NCBI RefSeq assembly: GCF_006716425.1
Contig: NZ_VFOZ01000001.1
Coordinates: 4,464,001-4,528,000, forward strand
DNA length: 64,000 nt
Origin: Actinoallomurus bryophytorum
GTDB taxonomy: Bacteria; Actinomycetota; Actinomycetes; Streptosporangiales; Streptosporangiaceae
Reading direction: 5' to 3'
Of this stretch, positions 57,611-64,000 are shown piece by piece; within the stretch, counting starts at the first letter, position 1, and every line of letters begins with the position of its first letter. The notes under the pieces were generated by a model, which saw nothing but the letters and a program-made list of their open reading frames with translations, made no database searches and was not told the DNA's origin. Both the position numbers and the translations under genes were made by a program.

Positions 57611-58208
57611 GTGGCGATCTCCGACGCCCTGCGCAACGACCGGCTCATCCTCGAGGCGGCGGCACGAGGCCTGGCCGAGGACCCCAAGGCCACGATGCAG
57701 CGCATCGCCGACGAGGCGGGCGTGGCGAGGCTCACCGTCTACCGCCGCTACCACGACCGCGAGGCACTACGCCGTGCGATCTTCGAGGCCGCCGCGGCCG
57801 AGGCCCAGCAGGTCATCCCCGATCCGCTGGGAGACGACCTGGATCCCGTGGGGCGCACTGCGCACTCTCATCATCGAAAGGGCCGCCATCGCCCAGCGCT
57901 ATCCGCTGCTGTCCGTCGGAACCGACCTGCAACCCCTGCCGTCGGACGTCCGGCGCCCTTCCACTCCGCCCCAGGCCAGAGCCATGCAACAGGCGGTCCT
58001 CGCGGCTCGTACGGCGAGGACGGCGGCAGGGCCGCCTGCGATCCGACCTGCCGCCGGAACTGCTGCCCCAGGCCATCGCCGGCACCCTCCGGATCGCACT
58101 GAGGTTCGCCCGGAGCCTCGGCACCGCTCCGGAGCTCATCGGGGCCTAGGTGGCCGACCTCCTCCTGCACGGCTTCGCCCTGGATCCTCCGGACGACCAC
58201 ACGCCTTA
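57611..58208 (+). pseudogene. TetR regulator pseudogene, several frame breaks
   Basis: A GTG start gives 'AISDALRNDRLILEAAARGLAED', then IADEAGVARLTVYRRYHDRE, a good TetR helix-turn-helix, to about 57840. The frame then has to change to continue as PWGALRTLIIERAAIAQRYPLLSVG, and again near 58000 for LRSDLPPELLPQAIAGTLRIA. A stop interrupts before VADLLLHGFALDPP. Pieces are collinear, so this was one gene of about 190-200 residues. It no longer encodes an intact regulator unless the breaks are sequencing errors. Confidence 0.75.
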
Positions 58209-58229
58209 GTGGTCTGAGTCGTAAGTCCT
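58208..58229 (+). repeat. Left 22-bp direct repeat flanking the SUKH gene
   Basis: AGTGGTCTGAGTCGTAAGTCCT; matches 58920-58941 at 20 of 22 positions. It lies at the end of the TetR pseudogene, seven bases after a possible stop. Confidence 0.8.
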
Positions 58230-58329
58230 TCGGGGGTGGATTCCCCGGTGTCGCGCGCCGATGCGGGTGCCGTGGTGGCCGCTGGTCCAGAATGACGCGT
58301 GGAACTTCTCGGAGGAGAGGAACGCTGAT

Positions 58330-58920
58330 GTGACGGACATGTCTGTTGGGGATGCGCCGCGCACCGCTGAGGACTGGCGTGCCTATCTGGTCGAGTACGG
58401 CGGGGTGTATGTGCGGACCGCGAACGAGTACGTACGCCCACGCCTGACCGCCGAGCAGATCGAGAGCCACTGGCTGGGTGCCGCGCCCGTGGACGTGCGA
58501 ACCATCGCGGCCACCGAGCAGCGCCTGGGCATCCGGTTCCCGCCCAGCCTGCGGGCCTTCCTGACCGTCACCGACGGCTGGCAGGGGGTCGGCGGGTGGG
58601 TCGATGAGGTCAGTCCTTGCGCCGAGATTGACTGGCTGCGCAACACCGGCATGGGTGAGGACCTGATCGGCGTCTACGCCGAGGTGGAGCAGGAGGACAG
58701 CGAGCCCAATGAGCTGCTCGCGCTGTTCCGGCGTGCCTTGGTGATCACCAGCGGTGAGGATTTGTGGCTGCTCGATCCCACCACGATTCACCCGGACGGC
58801 GAGTGGAGCGCCTACGAGTTCGCGCCCAAATACGGGGAGGCCGAGGAGTACCCGAGCTTTGCCGAACTGTTCCACGCGAGCAAGGATCGGATGATCAGGC
58901 TCGCCGAAAACGAGAACTAA
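58330..58920 (+). CDS. SMI1/KNR4 (SUKH) family protein
   Basis: A 196-residue protein starting at GTG 58330 after GGAGAGGA; ATG 58339 is an alternative. It has the SUKH core 'VDVRTIAATEQRLGIRFPPSLRAFLTVTDGWQGVGGWVDEV' in fragments, with the family's 'P.SL..FL...NGW' helix-turn, and 'LFRRALVITSGEDLWLLDP'. SUKH proteins often serve as immunity proteins to polymorphic toxins. No toxin gene is adjacent. A 22-bp repeat copy begins at its last stop-codon base, so the gene sits inside a repeat-bounded 0.7-kb segment. Confidence 0.88.
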   Translation: MTDMSVGDAPRTAEDWRAYLVEYGGVYVRTANEYVRPRLTAEQIESHWLGAAPVDVRTIAATEQRLGIRFPPSLRAFLTVTDGWQGVGGWVDEVSPCAEIDWLRNTGMGEDLIGVYAEVEQEDSEPNELLALFRRALVITSGEDLWLLDPTTIHPDGEWSAYEFAPKYGEAEEYPSFAELFHASKDRMIRLAENEN

Positions 58921-58941: not shown

Positions 58942-59047
58942 CGTTTTCAGGCCATGGTTGGCAGAGCAGGCTGATCCTCGTGTTCGGGGCCGGGTTCTGT
59001 TTGTTCGTGTCGCTCGATCCGGGCTAGACGAGTCTTTCCGAATGTGG

Positions 59048-59520
59048 TCAGTGATCGTAGGCGGTCAGTGAGCGGGTGATCGCTTGGCCGGTCTGGAAGT
59101 TGTGCCAGATCGCGGCGGCCGGTGCCGGCACGCGTTGCGCGACAAGTACGGCGACGCCCTCGACGGTGCGTGCACCGTGTTGTTCCAGGTCGAGCTGGCC
59201 TTTGAGGGTGTCGTTCACCGATTCGATGAGCTGGCGGACCTTTTTGAGTATCGGTTCGCCGGCTCGCCTGATCTCGTCCTTGCGGGAGGGCCGCAGGAGC
59301 GTGATGCCCGGTGTGGACAGTGACCGTTCGAAGGACTTGGATGTGAGCCCTTGTCGCTGATCAGCAACAGGCCTGGCCGCTCGCGCACCAGGTCGGCATC
59401 GACGGTGAGCATCGCGTCCAGCACCTCCCGTTCACCGAGCTTGGGATCGGCCAGTGCCCACAGGATCGGCATCCCGGCCGGGATGCACACCAGATAGAGG
59501 CGTAGTCCCCAAAAAGAACG
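59048..59520 (-). pseudogene. IS982-family transposase fragment, truncated and frame-shifted
   Basis: Read leftwards, 'RSFWGLRLYLVCIPAGMPIL' and WALADPKLGEREVLDAMLTVDADLVRERPGLLLISDKG run in one frame. After a frame break near 59345 the sequence continues as FERSLSTPGITLLRPSRKDE and ends in QLIESVNDTLKGQLDLEQHG and TRSLTAYDH with a stop at 59048. This is the C-terminal two-thirds of an IS982 transposase, lacking the N-terminus. Its upstream end is fused to the sequence TAGGGCGTGT, which matches the MITE terminus at 51 kb and supplies the stop of the neighbouring gene. Confidence 0.85.
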
Positions 59521-59527
59521 ACACGCC

Positions 59528-60481
59528 CTAACGGGGTGGGACGCGCAGGCGGATGTCGGTGCCGGTCGGGCCGGTGCGGAGTTGGACCAGCGGGCACAGC
59601 ATGCGGACGCCCCACAGGCCGAAGCCCGCGCGTACCAGGGGGTCCGGAGGCAGGAAGCCCGGCAGGCCCTCCGGCCGCCAGTGGCCGCCGTCCGTCACGT
59701 CGACCACCAGGTCGCCGCCGTCGGCCCAGGTGCGGCAGGTGACCGGGGGGAGGCCGTGCCGGATCGCGTTGGTGGCGACCTCGGTGGTGGCGACGAGCAG
59801 ATCGTGCAGGCGGGCCGACGTGATGCCGTGGTCCTCGGCGTGGCCGCCGACGAAGGCCCGTAGTGCGCACAGGTCGATGCTGTCGACCGGCATCGCGCGT
59901 GCGTCCGGCGGGACCGGGGGCAGCGGAGGGCGGTCGACCTCGGCGTAGACCGCGTGAGGATCGCGGTAGGCGTCGTTGACGTGCGGGCCGGCGCCGCCGA
60001 CCAGCTCGGGGTGGGTGTGCAGCACGCCGTCGAGGACGTCCGGCGCGATCAGGCGCCGGTCGTACATGCACAGCACGGCCGCGTCCACGTCGGCGAACGC
60101 CTGGTTGACGATCGACTCGTACCGGGTCCATTCGGCGATCTCGGCGGGCGTGCGGGCCTTCCAGCCGGGCTCGGCCAGCGCGCGGATGCGCGTCGCGGGA
60201 TGGTCGTCGATGAAGGAGCTGTAGGCGGCGATGGTGCGCGTCGGATGGGAGTACCAGTGGGCGGCGTCGCGGAACTCCAGGGCGTCGGCGCGAGCGCCCA
60301 GCGCGTGGCGGAGCCTGACCTCGGTGGCGGCCGGGATGACGGCGAGTACGGCCTCGCCGGCCTCGAGCCCCTCGACCAGGAACGGTATCGCCGCCGCGAG
60401 ATAGGACTCGTCGCCGGAGTGGAGCATGGCCCGGTGGACGAGCCTGGTGTGGGGGGAGTCGCTGTGGGGGGACATCGTCAC
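59528..60481 (-). CDS. MEDS-domain protein fused to anti-sigma-type HATPase
   Basis: A 317-residue protein. Residues 12-190 form a MEDS (DcmR-like sensory) domain ('HRAMLHSGDESYLAAAIPFLVEGLEAGEAVLAVIPAA', 'IDDHPATRIRALAEPGW', 'YESIVNQAFA'). Residues 205-315 are an HATPase_c_2 kinase of the anti-sigma kind, with N-box TTEVATNAIRHG, G1 DVTDGG and G2 GFGLWGVRML. Such fusions (RsbA-like) are thought to control partner-switching. The start overlaps the upstream MEDS-STAS gene's stop (ATGA). The TAG stop is part of TAGGGCGTGT from an insertion end. Confidence 0.9.
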   Translation of the reverse strand: MTMSPHSDSPHTRLVHRAMLHSGDESYLAAAIPFLVEGLEAGEAVLAVIPAATEVRLRHALGARADALEFRDAAHWYSHPTRTIAAYSSFIDDHPATRIRALAEPGWKARTPAEIAEWTRYESIVNQAFADVDAAVLCMYDRRLIAPDVLDGVLHTHPELVGGAGPHVNDAYRDPHAVYAEVDRPPLPPVPPDARAMPVDSIDLCALRAFVGGHAEDHGITSARLHDLLVATTEVATNAIRHGLPPVTCRTWADGGDLVVDVTDGGHWRPEGLPGFLPPDPLVRAGFGLWGVRMLCPLVQLRTGPTGTDIRLRVPPR

Positions 60482-61359
60482 GACGCCTCACCGTTGCCGA
60501 TCTTCAGCCAGGGGAGCATCGGCCCTCCGACGAGCTGTACGACCTCGGTGAGGTCGGGTGAGGGATCGTCGAGTATCAGGCTGCCGTGCGCGGCCATGCG
60601 CATCGCCGCGCCGGCCATCATGCTCAGCGCGCCCAGGTCGATGAACCTCAGGTCACGGACATTGAGGTGAATGTCGCCGCCCAGCGCCGTCACGGCATGC
60701 AGGGCCTCGGCGAACACGGTGTGCCGCGCGCCGTCCAGCTCGCCCTTGAGATGCAGGCCGCGTGGCGAGAACGTGCGGGTTATGGTCAGGACTCCATCGT
60801 CGAAGTCTGGATCGGCGCCCACGAGAACCTCGTGTGTCTCCTTGAGTGCGGTGAGCTCGTCGCGTGTGCAGGAGCGCCGGTCGATCTGGCATATCGCCAT
60901 CGCCGTGGTGCTGGGTGCGATGGCCGCGTCTAACCCGGCCTCGCAGTCCAGCACTCGGTCTCGGCCGCTCCGCTGCCGGATCGCCCAGGTCATGTCCGCC
61001 GTCACACGGACTCCGCGGAACCGGTCCCGTTCGGCACGGGCCAGCACGTCTTCCAGAGAGGCGACCATCCGCGCGGGATCGAAGACCCCGGCGGTCAGGC
61101 ATGCCTCCGCGCGCGGAAGGATCGCGAGCTGCCCCGTGCGCAGGTAGGTCTCGGGATTGAGCTCGCGGGTGGTCCGCAGGCCCGGCAGATCCCGCGGATC
61201 GGCATCGGTGATGTAGATGACCTTGTCCGCGGTCATCAGCCCGTCGCGGAGGAAGGTGCCCACGACGTGCTCCTGCTCCTCACGACTGGAGTAGGAGAAC
61301 CACGCATGGTCTCCGGGCAGCATCTTGCCGACGGATCGTTCGGCGAACCAGCTCTCCAT
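60478..61359 (-). CDS. MEDS-domain protein with C-terminal STAS-like domain
   Basis: A 293-residue protein from ATG 61359, preceded by GTGGAG; a longer frame upstream is not supported. Residues 15-185 are a MEDS domain ('LPGDHAWFSYSSREEQEHVVGTFLRDGL', 'VIYITDADPRDLPG'). Residues 200-290 are STAS-like ('LTITRTFSPRGLHLKGELDGARHTVFAEALHAV', 'DIHLNVRDLRFIDLGALSMMAGAA'), with a serine-free anti-sigma-antagonist centre (FIDLGAL in place of FIDSSGL). The missing phosphorylatable serine is odd. It overlaps the downstream HATPase gene, making a sensor-antagonist and sensor-kinase pair. Confidence 0.88.
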   Translation of the reverse strand: MESWFAERSVGKMLPGDHAWFSYSSREEQEHVVGTFLRDGLMTADKVIYITDADPRDLPGLRTTRELNPETYLRTGQLAILPRAEACLTAGVFDPARMVASLEDVLARAERDRFRGVRVTADMTWAIRQRSGRDRVLDCEAGLDAAIAPSTTAMAICQIDRRSCTRDELTALKETHEVLVGADPDFDDGVLTITRTFSPRGLHLKGELDGARHTVFAEALHAVTALGGDIHLNVRDLRFIDLGALSMMAGAAMRMAAHGSLILDDPSPDLTEVVQLVGGPMLPWLKIGNGEAS

Positions 61360-61453
61360 AGGCTCCACCCCGCGCGGCGATCGGCAGGCACATACAGCAT
61401 AAGGCCATGAACTCAGCGTGACGATGCCTTCACCCATACCGATTTCGTCAGGC

Positions 61454-61957
61454 TCAGTCGGGATGCGGGTCGAACCCGCCGTACCGGCCCTGATGGTATA
61501 GGAGCGGCCCACCGGACGTACCCAGCTCAGTACCAATCACGATTCCGACCACGAGCCAATGATCACCCAACGCGATGGTGTCGTAGGGCTCGCACAGCAG
61601 GTGAACGGTGATTCCGCCGAGGATCGGCACCCCGTACGGGCCCGTTCGCCAACGGGTGGGCGACCCGAAACGATCGATGCCGCGCACGGCGAAACGCGAC
61701 GCGGTCGCCGCCTGGTCGCCGGCGAGCACGTTGACGCCGAAGACCGGCGCCTGCCGCAGGTCCGGCCAGGTCGTGGACGCGCGGTCGACGCAGAACGACA
61801 CGAGCGGGGGGTCCAGGCTGACCGAGGTCAGCGACGTCGCGGTCAGTCCCACCGGGCCCGGCCCGGTGATCACGGCCACGCCGGAGGCGTGCCGGCCCAG
61901 TGCGAGCCGGAACCGGTTCGCGTCCACGATCGGCTTCTGCGTCACTCGGGTGTTCAT
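61454..61957 (-). CDS. Flavin reductase domain protein
   Basis: A 167-residue FMN-binding split-barrel protein from ATG 61957 (MNTRVTQKP), which overlaps the upstream NADPH:FMN reductase stop (ATGA). Motifs are 'FRLALGRHASGVAVITG', 'GLTATSLTSVSLDPPLVSFCVD', 'FGVNVLAGDQ' and 'LVVGIVIGTEL'. It would supply reduced flavin to the LLM monooxygenase. It is the last gene of the sulfonate operon on the minus strand. Confidence 0.9.
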   Translation of the reverse strand: MNTRVTQKPIVDANRFRLALGRHASGVAVITGPGPVGLTATSLTSVSLDPPLVSFCVDRASTTWPDLRQAPVFGVNVLAGDQAATASRFAVRGIDRFGSPTRWRTGPYGVPILGGITVHLLCEPYDTIALGDHWLVVGIVIGTELGTSGGPLLYHQGRYGGFDPHPD

Positions 61958-62484
61958 CGACCGCCTGCCGTTTCCGGTAGTCGTACGGCCGCCGCCCACT
62001 CGGCCAGGATCTCCTCGATCCGCCCCAGCTCGGACTCGACCACGGCGAGCCCCGGCGTGGGCACGGTCGCGCCGAGCTCGACGAGGAGCGGGCGCAGGTG
62101 CACCTCGACCGCGAGCGCGTGCCGGGGCGAGCCCATCACGAGCAGCGGCAGCGCAGTGACGCCGCCGAGCGAGGGCACCCGGTCGAGGAACGCCTTCAGC
62201 AGACCCGTGTAGGTGCCCTTGTACGTCGGGCTCGCGACCACCAGGAGGTCGGCCGACGTGACGCGTTCGACGGCGTCCTCCAGCGCCACCGAGGCGTGCG
62301 GGCCGAGCAGTACGGGAGCCAGCGCGGTCAGGTCGATGATCTCGGGCGTGATGCCGGGCGCGAGCGCCTGTGCGGCCTGGGCGGCGACCGCGTGCGTACG
62401 TGAGGCCGGGCGCGGGTTGCCCACGAGGACGACGACGCGCGTGCCGTGGCGGGTGGTGGTGCCGGCCTTCGACGGGGCGCTCAC
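61954..62484 (-). CDS. ssuE: NADPH-dependent FMN reductase (SsuE-like)
   Basis: A 176-residue flavodoxin-like reductase starting at GTG 62484 that overlaps the ssuD stop (GTGA). The FMN-phosphate loop is [11 protein letters not shown], then '[26 protein letters not shown]' and '[28 protein letters not shown]'. It reduces FMN for the sulfonate monooxygenase. Having both SsuE and a split-barrel reductase in one operon is redundant; one may serve a different enzyme. Confidence 0.9.
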
Positions 62485-63587
62485 GCGGCGTCCTCGCGCA
62501 GGCCGAGGCGGTTCAGCTCGGGCAGCACGCCCTCGCCGAACCAGTACGCCTCCTCCAGGTGCGGGTACCCCGACAGGACGAACTCCTCGATGCCGAGCGA
62601 GGCGTACTCCGCGATGCGCTCGGCAACCTGGCCATGGCTGCCGACGAGCGCGGTACCCGCGCCTCCGCGTACGAGGCCCACTCCGGCCCAGAGATTGGGG
62701 TAGATCTCTAGGTCATGGGCGGACCCGCCGGTGCGGAAGTCCTCGTGCAGGGCCCGCATCCGCTTCTGGCCCACCGACTCGCTGCGGGCCAGGCCCTCCT
62801 GGGCGGCGGCGATCTCGGCCGGGTCCAGGTCGTCGAGCAGGCGGTCCGCCGCGACCCAGGCCTCCTTGGCCGTGTCGCGGGTCACGACGTGCAGCCGGAT
62901 GCCGAACCGCAGCCGCCGTCCCTGCTCCTCGGCCAGCCCGCGGATCCACTCGATCTTCTGCTTGACCTGCTGGGGCGGCTCGCCCCAGGTCAGGTAGACG
63001 TTCACGTGCCTGGCCGCCACCGGGCCCGCCGCGGGAGAGGAGCCGCCGAAGTACAGCTCGGGGATCGGGTCCGGCGCCGCCGAGACGGTCGCGCCCTCGA
63101 CCTGGTAGTGGTCACCCTTGAAGTCGTACGGCTCCCCACTCCAGGCGCCGCGCACGATGGACAGGAACTCATCGGTACGCGCGTAGCGCTCGTCGTGGGA
63201 CAGATGGTCCCCGAAGCGCGCCTGCTCGGTGCGCTCGCCGCCGGTGACGATGTTGAGCAGCAGCCGGCCGCGCGAGAGCCGCTGGTACGTCGCGGCCATC
63301 TGCGCGGCCAGCGTCGGGGACAGCGCGCCGGGACGGAAGGCGACGAGGAACTTCAGGCGCTCGGTCTCGCGGGTCAGCGCGGCCGTGGTCAGCCAGGCGT
63401 CCTCGCACTGTGTGCCGGTGGGGGTGAGGACGCCCTCGAAGCCGAGTTGTTCGGCCGACCGCGCGATCTGCGCCAGGTACTCGATGTCCGGCGGGCGCTG
63501 CACCCCGCGCCGGGCGGCCCCGTGACCGCCGCCGACGAGGTTGCGGCCGTCACCGCTCGTGGGCAGGAACCAGTGGAACTTCGTCAT
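62481..63587 (-). CDS. ssuD: LLM-class FMN-dependent alkanesulfonate monooxygenase
   Basis: A 368-residue luciferase-like TIM barrel. Landmarks are [12 protein letters not shown] at the start, '[27 protein letters not shown]', '[40 protein letters not shown]' and '[27 protein letters not shown]'. These are the SsuD pattern. It oxidises alkanesulfonates to aldehyde and sulfite with reduced FMN. It overlaps ssuA stop and ssuE start by four bases each, so the operon is tightly coupled. Confidence 0.94.
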
Positions 63588-64000
63588 GACGAGCCTCCGG
63601 GAACGGTGTCGTTGAAGCGCCGGTCGACGAAGTCGCCGATCTTCAGGCGGCCGGGGATGAGCTTGGCGTCGGAGAACGCGTCGGCGAGCTGCTGCTCACC
63701 GGTGATGACGGTGTCGTCGAGCTGGACCGGCTTGGTGACGCGCCGGTGCGCGGCGACCTGGGCGACGGGAAGCGGCAGCCCGATCTGCGCGGACCACGTC
63801 TTGGCCCACTGGTCCTGGTGGGTCGCGGCCCAGACCGTGGCGCGGTCCAGCCGGGTCAGGTAGTCGCGGATCGCCGCGACCTTCGCCTTGTCCTTCAACG
63901 CCTTGGCCGCGGCGACGTTGAACTGGTAGTTGGTGCCGAAGCCGTTGCCGTAGACCAGGGTGCGGGCGCCGGTCTGCGCCTGGGCCTGCGCGGTGTAGGG
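63584..64000 (-). CDS. ssuA: Aliphatic sulfonate ABC transporter substrate-binding protein (C-terminal part)
   Basis: The C-terminal 138 residues of a periplasmic-type sulfonate-binding protein, cut by the window edge on its N-terminal side. It contains '[23 protein letters not shown]', '[41 protein letters not shown]' and '[27 protein letters not shown]', typical of SsuA-like proteins. It is first in the visible operon and overlaps ssuD by four bases. The rest of the gene and any permease lie to the right of the window. Confidence 0.92.

Follow-up and report, generated by a model that had tools for sequence, protein, structure and literature searches.

Partner switches are the textbook case of control by reversible serine phosphorylation, and the question raised by a gene pair on the reverse strand of the Actinoallomurus bryophytorum genome is how such a switch could be set when its antagonist has no serine at the usual site. 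The pair lies in a stretch of 64,000 nucleotides, which we call the window. Gene S (60478..61359, reverse strand) encodes a MEDS-STAS protein of 293 aa, a putative anti-anti-sigma factor by Pfam matches and conservation in the genus. Gene K (59528..60481, reverse strand) encodes a MEDS-HATPase_c_2 protein of 317 aa, a putative anti-sigma factor of the RsbA family by Pfam and NCBIfam. By their reading frames, the stop of S and the start of K overlap by 4 bp (60478..60481, reverse strand). The preliminary description had proposed two overlapping genes with a MEDS domain each, one joined to HATPase_c_2 and the other to STAS, and all four domains indeed score above their Pfam cut-offs. The pair is real at these coordinates; chance or spurious reading frames were ruled out by domain matches, dN/dS and conservation.

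The MEDS domain of S (residues 17-176; 60832..61311, reverse strand) was matched by Pfam at E 3.8e-33 and 115 bits (PF14417 cut-off 29.8), and is KaiC-like by AlphaFold2 and Foldseek, though it carries no Walker A motif. Its STAS domain (residues 202-278; 60526..60756, reverse strand) was matched by Pfam STAS_2 at E 2.4e-9, and a profile of 64 S proteins matched SpoIIAA-family chains with a best E of 5.7e-6; against TIGR00377 (ant_ant_sig) S stayed under the cut-off (24.2 vs 53.45 bits). The AlphaFold2 model of S has a pLDDT of 92.7. KaiC accounts for all 50 of its Foldseek matches listed, the best at E 9.5e-7; since their query TM-scores lie at 0.40-0.46 and most rmsd values at 13-14, they are to be read for fold class only. 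S is under purifying selection (dN 0.06/dS 0.54 vs its nearest relative, L031), as is K (dN 0.16/dS 0.34 vs the same locus).

The MEDS domain of K (residues 16-158; 60008..60436, reverse strand) reaches E 2e-28 and 99.7 bits against the same PF14417 cut-off, and its HATPase_c_2 domain (residues 204-313; 59543..59872, reverse strand) E 8.4e-14. The latter is SpoIIAB/RsbW-like by Pfam, AlphaFold2 and Foldseek. The whole protein belongs to NCBIfam NF041045 (RsbA_anti_sig), with 295.9 bits against a cut-off of 210 and positions 2-302 of the 303 in the profile covered. The N-box of K, TEVATNAIRHG (59753..59785, reverse strand), keeps its Glu and Asn in the alignment, which we take to be of the catalytic type and the Mg-ligand type, respectively. 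The GHKL residues of K stand in TEVATN (Glu and Asn) and DVTDGG (Asp-x-Gly), as in the SpoIIAB/RsbW fold. With the AlphaFold2 model of K (pLDDT 91.0) the top Foldseek row is the response regulator LvrC at an rmsd of 22; the next rows are SpoIIAB, a SigF anti-sigma factor and RsbW, with KaiC and RecA further down. The window genome has three MEDS genes in all, the third being a MEDS-HATPase gene (C2:121682-122575) about 33% identical to K; no further MEDS gene was found near it, and a SpoIIE-type phosphatase match lies about 2.5 kb away at C2:118258.

The two-gene arrangement, which had been suggested for a search across actinobacteria, is conserved among relatives. In all eight genus genomes, the window's included, a MEDS search placed S and K on the same strand at a distance of about 0.8 kb; both genes were assigned by BLAST in each, and each genome has the centre F[IV]DLGAL. 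Since both the arrangement and the centre recur in eight of eight genomes, they are not due to chance. The seven genomes besides the window's (L031-L036 and L039) are mostly Actinoallomurus and were counted once. A wider scan gave 45 loci, nearly all from Thermomonosporaceae, of which 43 were used after L074 (fragments) and L075 (a weak Nitrospinales match) had been dropped; the alignment sets hold 64 S and 62 K proteins, those outside 230-400 aa being left out. S is followed by an adjacent MEDS-K in 36 of the 43 loci, so the objection that homologues of the two genes might never co-occur does not apply. The order is absent from L043, L053, L057, L063, L068 and L070; in L073, S is broken over frames and has no scored row, its pieces reading Val and Gly at the phosphosite. 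An overlap of 4 bp is possible at 25 of the 38 S-K junctions tested and one of 1 bp at 3. At E 0.001, 144 of 200 genomes from the order have matches to the MEDS-STAS profile, many of them weak or to one domain; at E 1e-20, matches are limited to 7 genomes in a sample of 148 from the class. In the open-access literature, subscription papers not being covered, we found no description of the MEDS-STAS/MEDS-HATPase pair.

The centre of the STAS domain bears most directly on the question. It reads FIDLGAL (60625..60645, reverse strand), and in the alignment of the S profile with that of SpoIIAA, F-I-D-L-G-A-L lies opposite F-M-D-S-S-G-L, so that the second Ser is replaced by Gly (codon 60631-60633). 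This second Ser is the residue that is phosphorylated in SpoIIAA (Ser58). The accessible part of PMC8256260 mentions a mutation of Ser58. The absence of a phosphorylatable Ser, already noted from FIDLGAL in the window, extends to the whole of its group: among 65 scored S copies the position is Gly in 61, Ala in 3, Asp in 1 and Ser or Thr in none. The Glu, the Asn and the Asp of G1 are all kept in 37 of the 39 adjacent K of this group. The sequence thus shows that the usual reset, in which the kinase phosphorylates the STAS Ser and a PP2C-type phosphatase removes the phosphate, has no Ser to act on at this position of S; phosphorylation of S at other residues is possible.

A broader set puts this loss in context. 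It consists of 60 S rows from 60 hand-picked, not random, stretches, in which the next gene is a MEDS-K in 25, a HATPase gene without MEDS in 25 (by a distance rule) and neither in 10. Among 64 MEDS/MEDS pair rows, a number that includes L088 as a duplicate of L040, Ser or Thr in S goes with an intact MEDS-K in only 2 (L111 and L133), and Ser in S goes with a deletion of the N-box in K in 7. Where S precedes a plain HATPase gene, Ser and an intact kinase occur together in 11 of the 25 rows. On a quick S tree, rooted at its midpoint and holding 119 of 125 S rows (the duplicate L088 was removed, and five more were lost in matching), all seven rows with Ser and a dead kinase fall in one clade of 12 rows (97, starred), which is sister to the 65-row group of the window (100, starred; joining fork 91). 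Ser was thus lost in the window's group and the N-box deleted in K of the sister clade, so that the phosphate link is broken at opposite ends. The sister clade also has Ala at the site in 5 of its 12 S and no K beside S in 4 of 12, which speaks against a strict rule, and because the rows are related (at least 10 changes of phosphosite state are needed overall on the tree) the counts are not those of independent events. In another clade (L086, L087, L103, L105, L114, L118, L120, L121 and L122) the MEDS-STAS centre reads FIDLSCT, with Ser kept, and the next gene encodes an intact HATPase that has no MEDS domain. In L136, L137, L138, L139 and L141, MEDS-STAS and plain HATPase genes share their stretches with plain STAS matches whose centre, FIDTTGLG, has Thr at the aligned site.

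We therefore turn to what the pair may do. Our preferred reading, which we consider rather probable, is that the pair works as a partner switch in which the MEDS domains of S and K have taken over the gating and phosphorylation no longer has a part. The two proteins would be co-translated as such a switch. The HATPase domain of K would bind and hold a sigma factor of the SigB/F/G type whose gene lies elsewhere, and the STAS domain of S, going by the usual pairing of STAS with HATPase domains, would bind K and so free the sigma factor. The switch would be set by MEDS sensing, and possibly by ATP/ADP in K, and not by phosphate at the usual site of S. Points against this are the score of S under the TIGR00377 cut-off, the absence of a sigma gene beside the window pair, the two rows (L111 and L133) with Ser or Thr and an intact kinase, and the fact that K keeps its kinase residues, which is odd if it never phosphorylates. 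The conservation of the kinase residues favours another explanation, by which K acts as a Ser kinase on some canonical STAS protein whose gene lies elsewhere, while S, lacking the Ser, occupies K as a decoy or competitor. The 89 HATPase_c_2 matches in the window genome at E 0.001, which make for a large network, also speak for it, and the available part of PMC10950880 gives a precedent in the RsbW proteins of M. smegmatis, where kinase, anti-sigma factor and antagonist are separate. We regard this explanation as rather unlikely, since the operon overlap and the paired co-evolution described below point to S as the main partner of K. The retained GHKL residues have another possible use as well, for they may support nucleotide-dependent sigma binding without kinase activity.

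For the gating by MEDS domains, the preliminary description had favoured a gate in which both domains sense one ligand as a MEDS-MEDS heterodimer. KaiC-like domains assemble, which would suit such a gate, as do the KaiC matches of the S model. The two MEDS domains are also of one family, with a profile alignment probability of 96.6%; yet they share 22% identity and their conserved residues are largely different. Furthermore, the HATPase gene after S has no MEDS domain in the 25 of 60 broader rows given above, from which it follows that a MEDS-MEDS contact is not needed for S to pair with a HATPase. Taken together, this makes co-sensing by a heterodimer improbable as the gate. The Walker A motif (G/AxxxxGK[ST]) is absent from the MEDS part of the 64 S rows (first 190 residues) and the 62 K rows. 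The relation of MEDS to KaiC, which also speaks for co-sensing, is not new, since the domain is listed as 'iKaiC' in the part of PMC5847659 available to us. Citations in the accessible part of PMC11507031 give simple hydrocarbon derivatives as the predicted signals of MEDS and name the domain as a negative regulator of SigB in actinobacteria, the latter being credited to Anantharaman and Aravind 2005.

Signs of co-evolution of S and K come from loci where the genes occur in arrays. A full K-S-K-S array is present in 16 of the 43 loci and an S-K-S-K array in Actinocorallia sp. API 0066 and in MAG RYN_227; S-K only is found in the window's clade and in L037, L041 and L042, and elsewhere there are partial arrays (S-K-S, K-S-K) and, in a few loci, a lone S. 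In the S tree, the last S of all 16 K-S-K-S arrays falls in a 20-row group (99, starred) and the first S of all 16 in a 23-row group (99, starred). The K tree is split in the same manner: one group of 20 rows (100, starred) takes in the first K of every such array, and another of 22 rows (99, starred) the second K. Both S-K-S-K arrays have a first S that clusters with the last S of K-S-K-S (96, starred; 86 in a larger tree), the S copy of L058 being a long branch in this grouping, and the first K of the S-K-S-K arrays groups with K1 of K-S-K-S. Because the first S and first K thus go with the last S and K1, the trees suggest ancestral pairs Sa-Ka and Sb-Kb, with Sa probably moved later to the end of the array. 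The arrays of L044-L071 show an apparent permutation of order, S-K-S-K vs K-S-K-S, with the pairings kept.

A mirror-tree test was made on the 11 of the 16 K-S-K-S loci that were left after distances had been corrected for Ham1 and RNase PH. It gave correlations of 0.74 for K1-S2 and 0.52 for S1-K2, the remaining pairings lying between -0.16 and 0.28. K1-S2 with S1-K2 was the best pairing in all five settings (9 to 16 loci) and won 919 of 997 scored bootstraps in the setting just described, and 939 of 997, 985 of 1000, 905 of 1000 and, without near-identical species, 818 of 944 in the others; these figures come from 9 to 16 related loci whose distances are not independent. A correlation is also seen for K1-K2, at 0.51 with one control gene and 0.71 without correction, and in two settings it comes near. 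Covariation at the interface had been proposed as a check on the pair, and it is at the coarse level of whole genes that the expectation holds, the test favouring specific S-K partners (K1-S2 and S1-K2). We infer that an S-K unit was duplicated into two co-evolving pairs in Actinomadura and relatives.

The sigma factor that such a switch would control is not to be read from the neighbourhood of the window pair. No sigma gene lies next to it, the nearest Sigma70_r2 match (of 104 in the genome) being about 12 kb off, and a homologue of the phosphatase of the sister loci was not matched within 100 kb; we therefore rejected the idea of naming the sigma target from its position next to the pair. 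The genome has six SigBFG matches over the NCBIfam cut-off. The sole SigBFG gene beside a HATPase_c_2 match is at C1:1069552, and that match is weak and under its cut-off. In the sister clade, all 12 S loci have a SigB/F/G-type sigma gene (246.0-275.8 bits; NCBIfam SigBFG cut-off 234.35). These were found with a profile for which 3 of the 8 sigma loci fetched were used, and its 12 sister matches were all confirmed by NCBIfam; a thirteenth, weak match to it is in L071. In all 12, a homologue of a PAS-GAF-SpoIIE phosphatase (at least 64% identical to that of L090) lies directly upstream of S, its SpoIIE domain being confirmed by Pfam in L089, L090 and L098. A complete partner-switch locus, with sigma and PP2C-type phosphatase genes, is thus found in 12 of 12 sister loci and not at the window pair. 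In L092 a stand-alone HATPase_c_2 gene adjoins the sigma gene and matches the HATPase half of RsbA_anti_sig; when its protein was compared with the window genome, K of the window was the second-best match (43% identity, E 7e-27). For the L092 sigma factor itself a single clear orthologue was not found in the window genome, which has six matches at 48-50% identity. In the plain STAS protein of the sister loci the centre reads FMDSRAL, so that the aligned residue is Arg and the Ser directly precedes it. The sister loci are the strongest link of the S-K pair to control of a SigB-type sigma factor, a link of association and not of function. Between the sigma gene and the region of the SpoIIE-type phosphatase, 12 of 12 sister loci (L089-L094, L097-L099, L104, L108 and L109) also have a homologue of an ANTAR-GAF gene whose product in L092 has 235 aa.

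Upstream of the window pair there are genes of a different kind. A flavin reductase gene (61454..61999) lies 94 bp upstream of S as a clade-specific neighbour, and beyond it come genes for an SsuE-like NADPH-dependent FMN reductase (61954..62484; below its NCBIfam cut-off), an SsuD-like luciferase-like monooxygenase (62481..63587; 472.7 bits, cut-off 510) and an SsuA-like aliphatic-sulfonate binding protein, 90% identical to the L031 protein, of whose gene the end part (63584..64000) is seen before it runs off the window; all four are on the reverse strand. The order in the window's clade is SsuA-like, SsuD-like, FMN reductase, flavin reductase and S, with a gap of 74-134 bp between flavin reductase and S on the same strand in L031-L035, and SsuC-like transport genes go with the cluster where tested (L031 and the window genome). 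The SsuA-like protein of L031 is over the SsuA_fam cut-off, and its SsuD-, SsuE- and SsuC-like proteins stay below theirs. Of the 7 other loci of the clade, 5 were found to have the flavin reductase, the monooxygenase and the SsuA-like end, which makes six loci with the window. In L034 no FMN reductase was found; the sulfonate cluster was not found in L036 (13,962 bases), and L039 has only a partial FMN-reductase match. A scan of 59400-62100 found neither a promoter nor a terminator.

These alkanesulfonate-type genes, directly upstream in six loci, together with the missing adjacent sigma gene, could mean that the S-K complex acts on a target that is not a sigma factor, such as the sulfonate genes through a different regulator. 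We think there is little chance of this, because the cluster was found only in the window's clade, whereas rdgB (Ham1) lies within the fetched flank of 31 of the 43 loci in several genera, and because the 12 sister loci have SigBFG sigma genes with phosphatase homologues. Under the preferred reading of a sigma-directed switch, the cluster bears on the ligand instead. Given its position upstream of S and the predicted sensing of hydrocarbon derivatives by MEDS (the latter from the accessible part of the source cited above), our guess is that the ligand class in the window's clade is an alkanesulfonate or an aldehyde. A wider and tentative reading, which we hold to be possible yet doubtful, is that the phosphate link was cut more than once, by loss of the Ser in one clade or of the kinase site in its sister, that both partners sense small molecules through degenerate KaiC folds, and that the signal in Actinoallomurus may be an alkanesulfonate or its aldehyde product.

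Compared with known systems, the S-K pair is a conserved variant within the partner switches, unusual in its cut phosphate link. K matches the RsbA_anti_sig model (NF041045) end to end and above its cut-off; the model is silent on the partner, and K is here tied to a MEDS-STAS gene. The HATPase and STAS domains are of the same families as in SpoIIAB/SpoIIAA and RsbW/RsbV, from which the pair differs in that S has no Ser at the usual site, both partners have sensors, and the window pair was found to have neither a phosphatase nor a sigma gene next to it. RsfA of M. tuberculosis is similar in being an antagonist gated by its own signal and not by phosphate; as given in the available part of PMC10950880, it senses redox directly via two cysteines, whereas S has a fused MEDS domain. 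In the rsbB-rsbA-sigB operon of S. coelicolor, according to the accessible part of PMC8346170, an antagonist gene likewise adjoins the anti-sigma gene for a SigB-type sigma factor; unlike the window pair, that operon includes sigB, and its control involves phosphorylation through a second RsbV homologue. If the reading proposed here is true, a phosphate-free form with sensors on both halves would show how a partner switch can be re-gated, and two co-evolving paralogous pairs in one array would add to that case. The relatives would also form a natural series (Ser with a dead kinase, no Ser with an intact kinase, Ser with an intact plain kinase) with which the purpose of the kinase step can be probed.

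Downstream of the pair, the stretch at 58990-59535, just after K, has by eye the look of a broken transposase, with a 72% identical copy at C1:3481981 and three shorter partial matches elsewhere; one of its reading frames was checked and had no Pfam match. Further along the window there are a TetR-like reading frame (57611-58217), with an apparent shift in mid-frame by eye, and a gene of the SMI1/KNR4 (SUKH) family (58261-58920).
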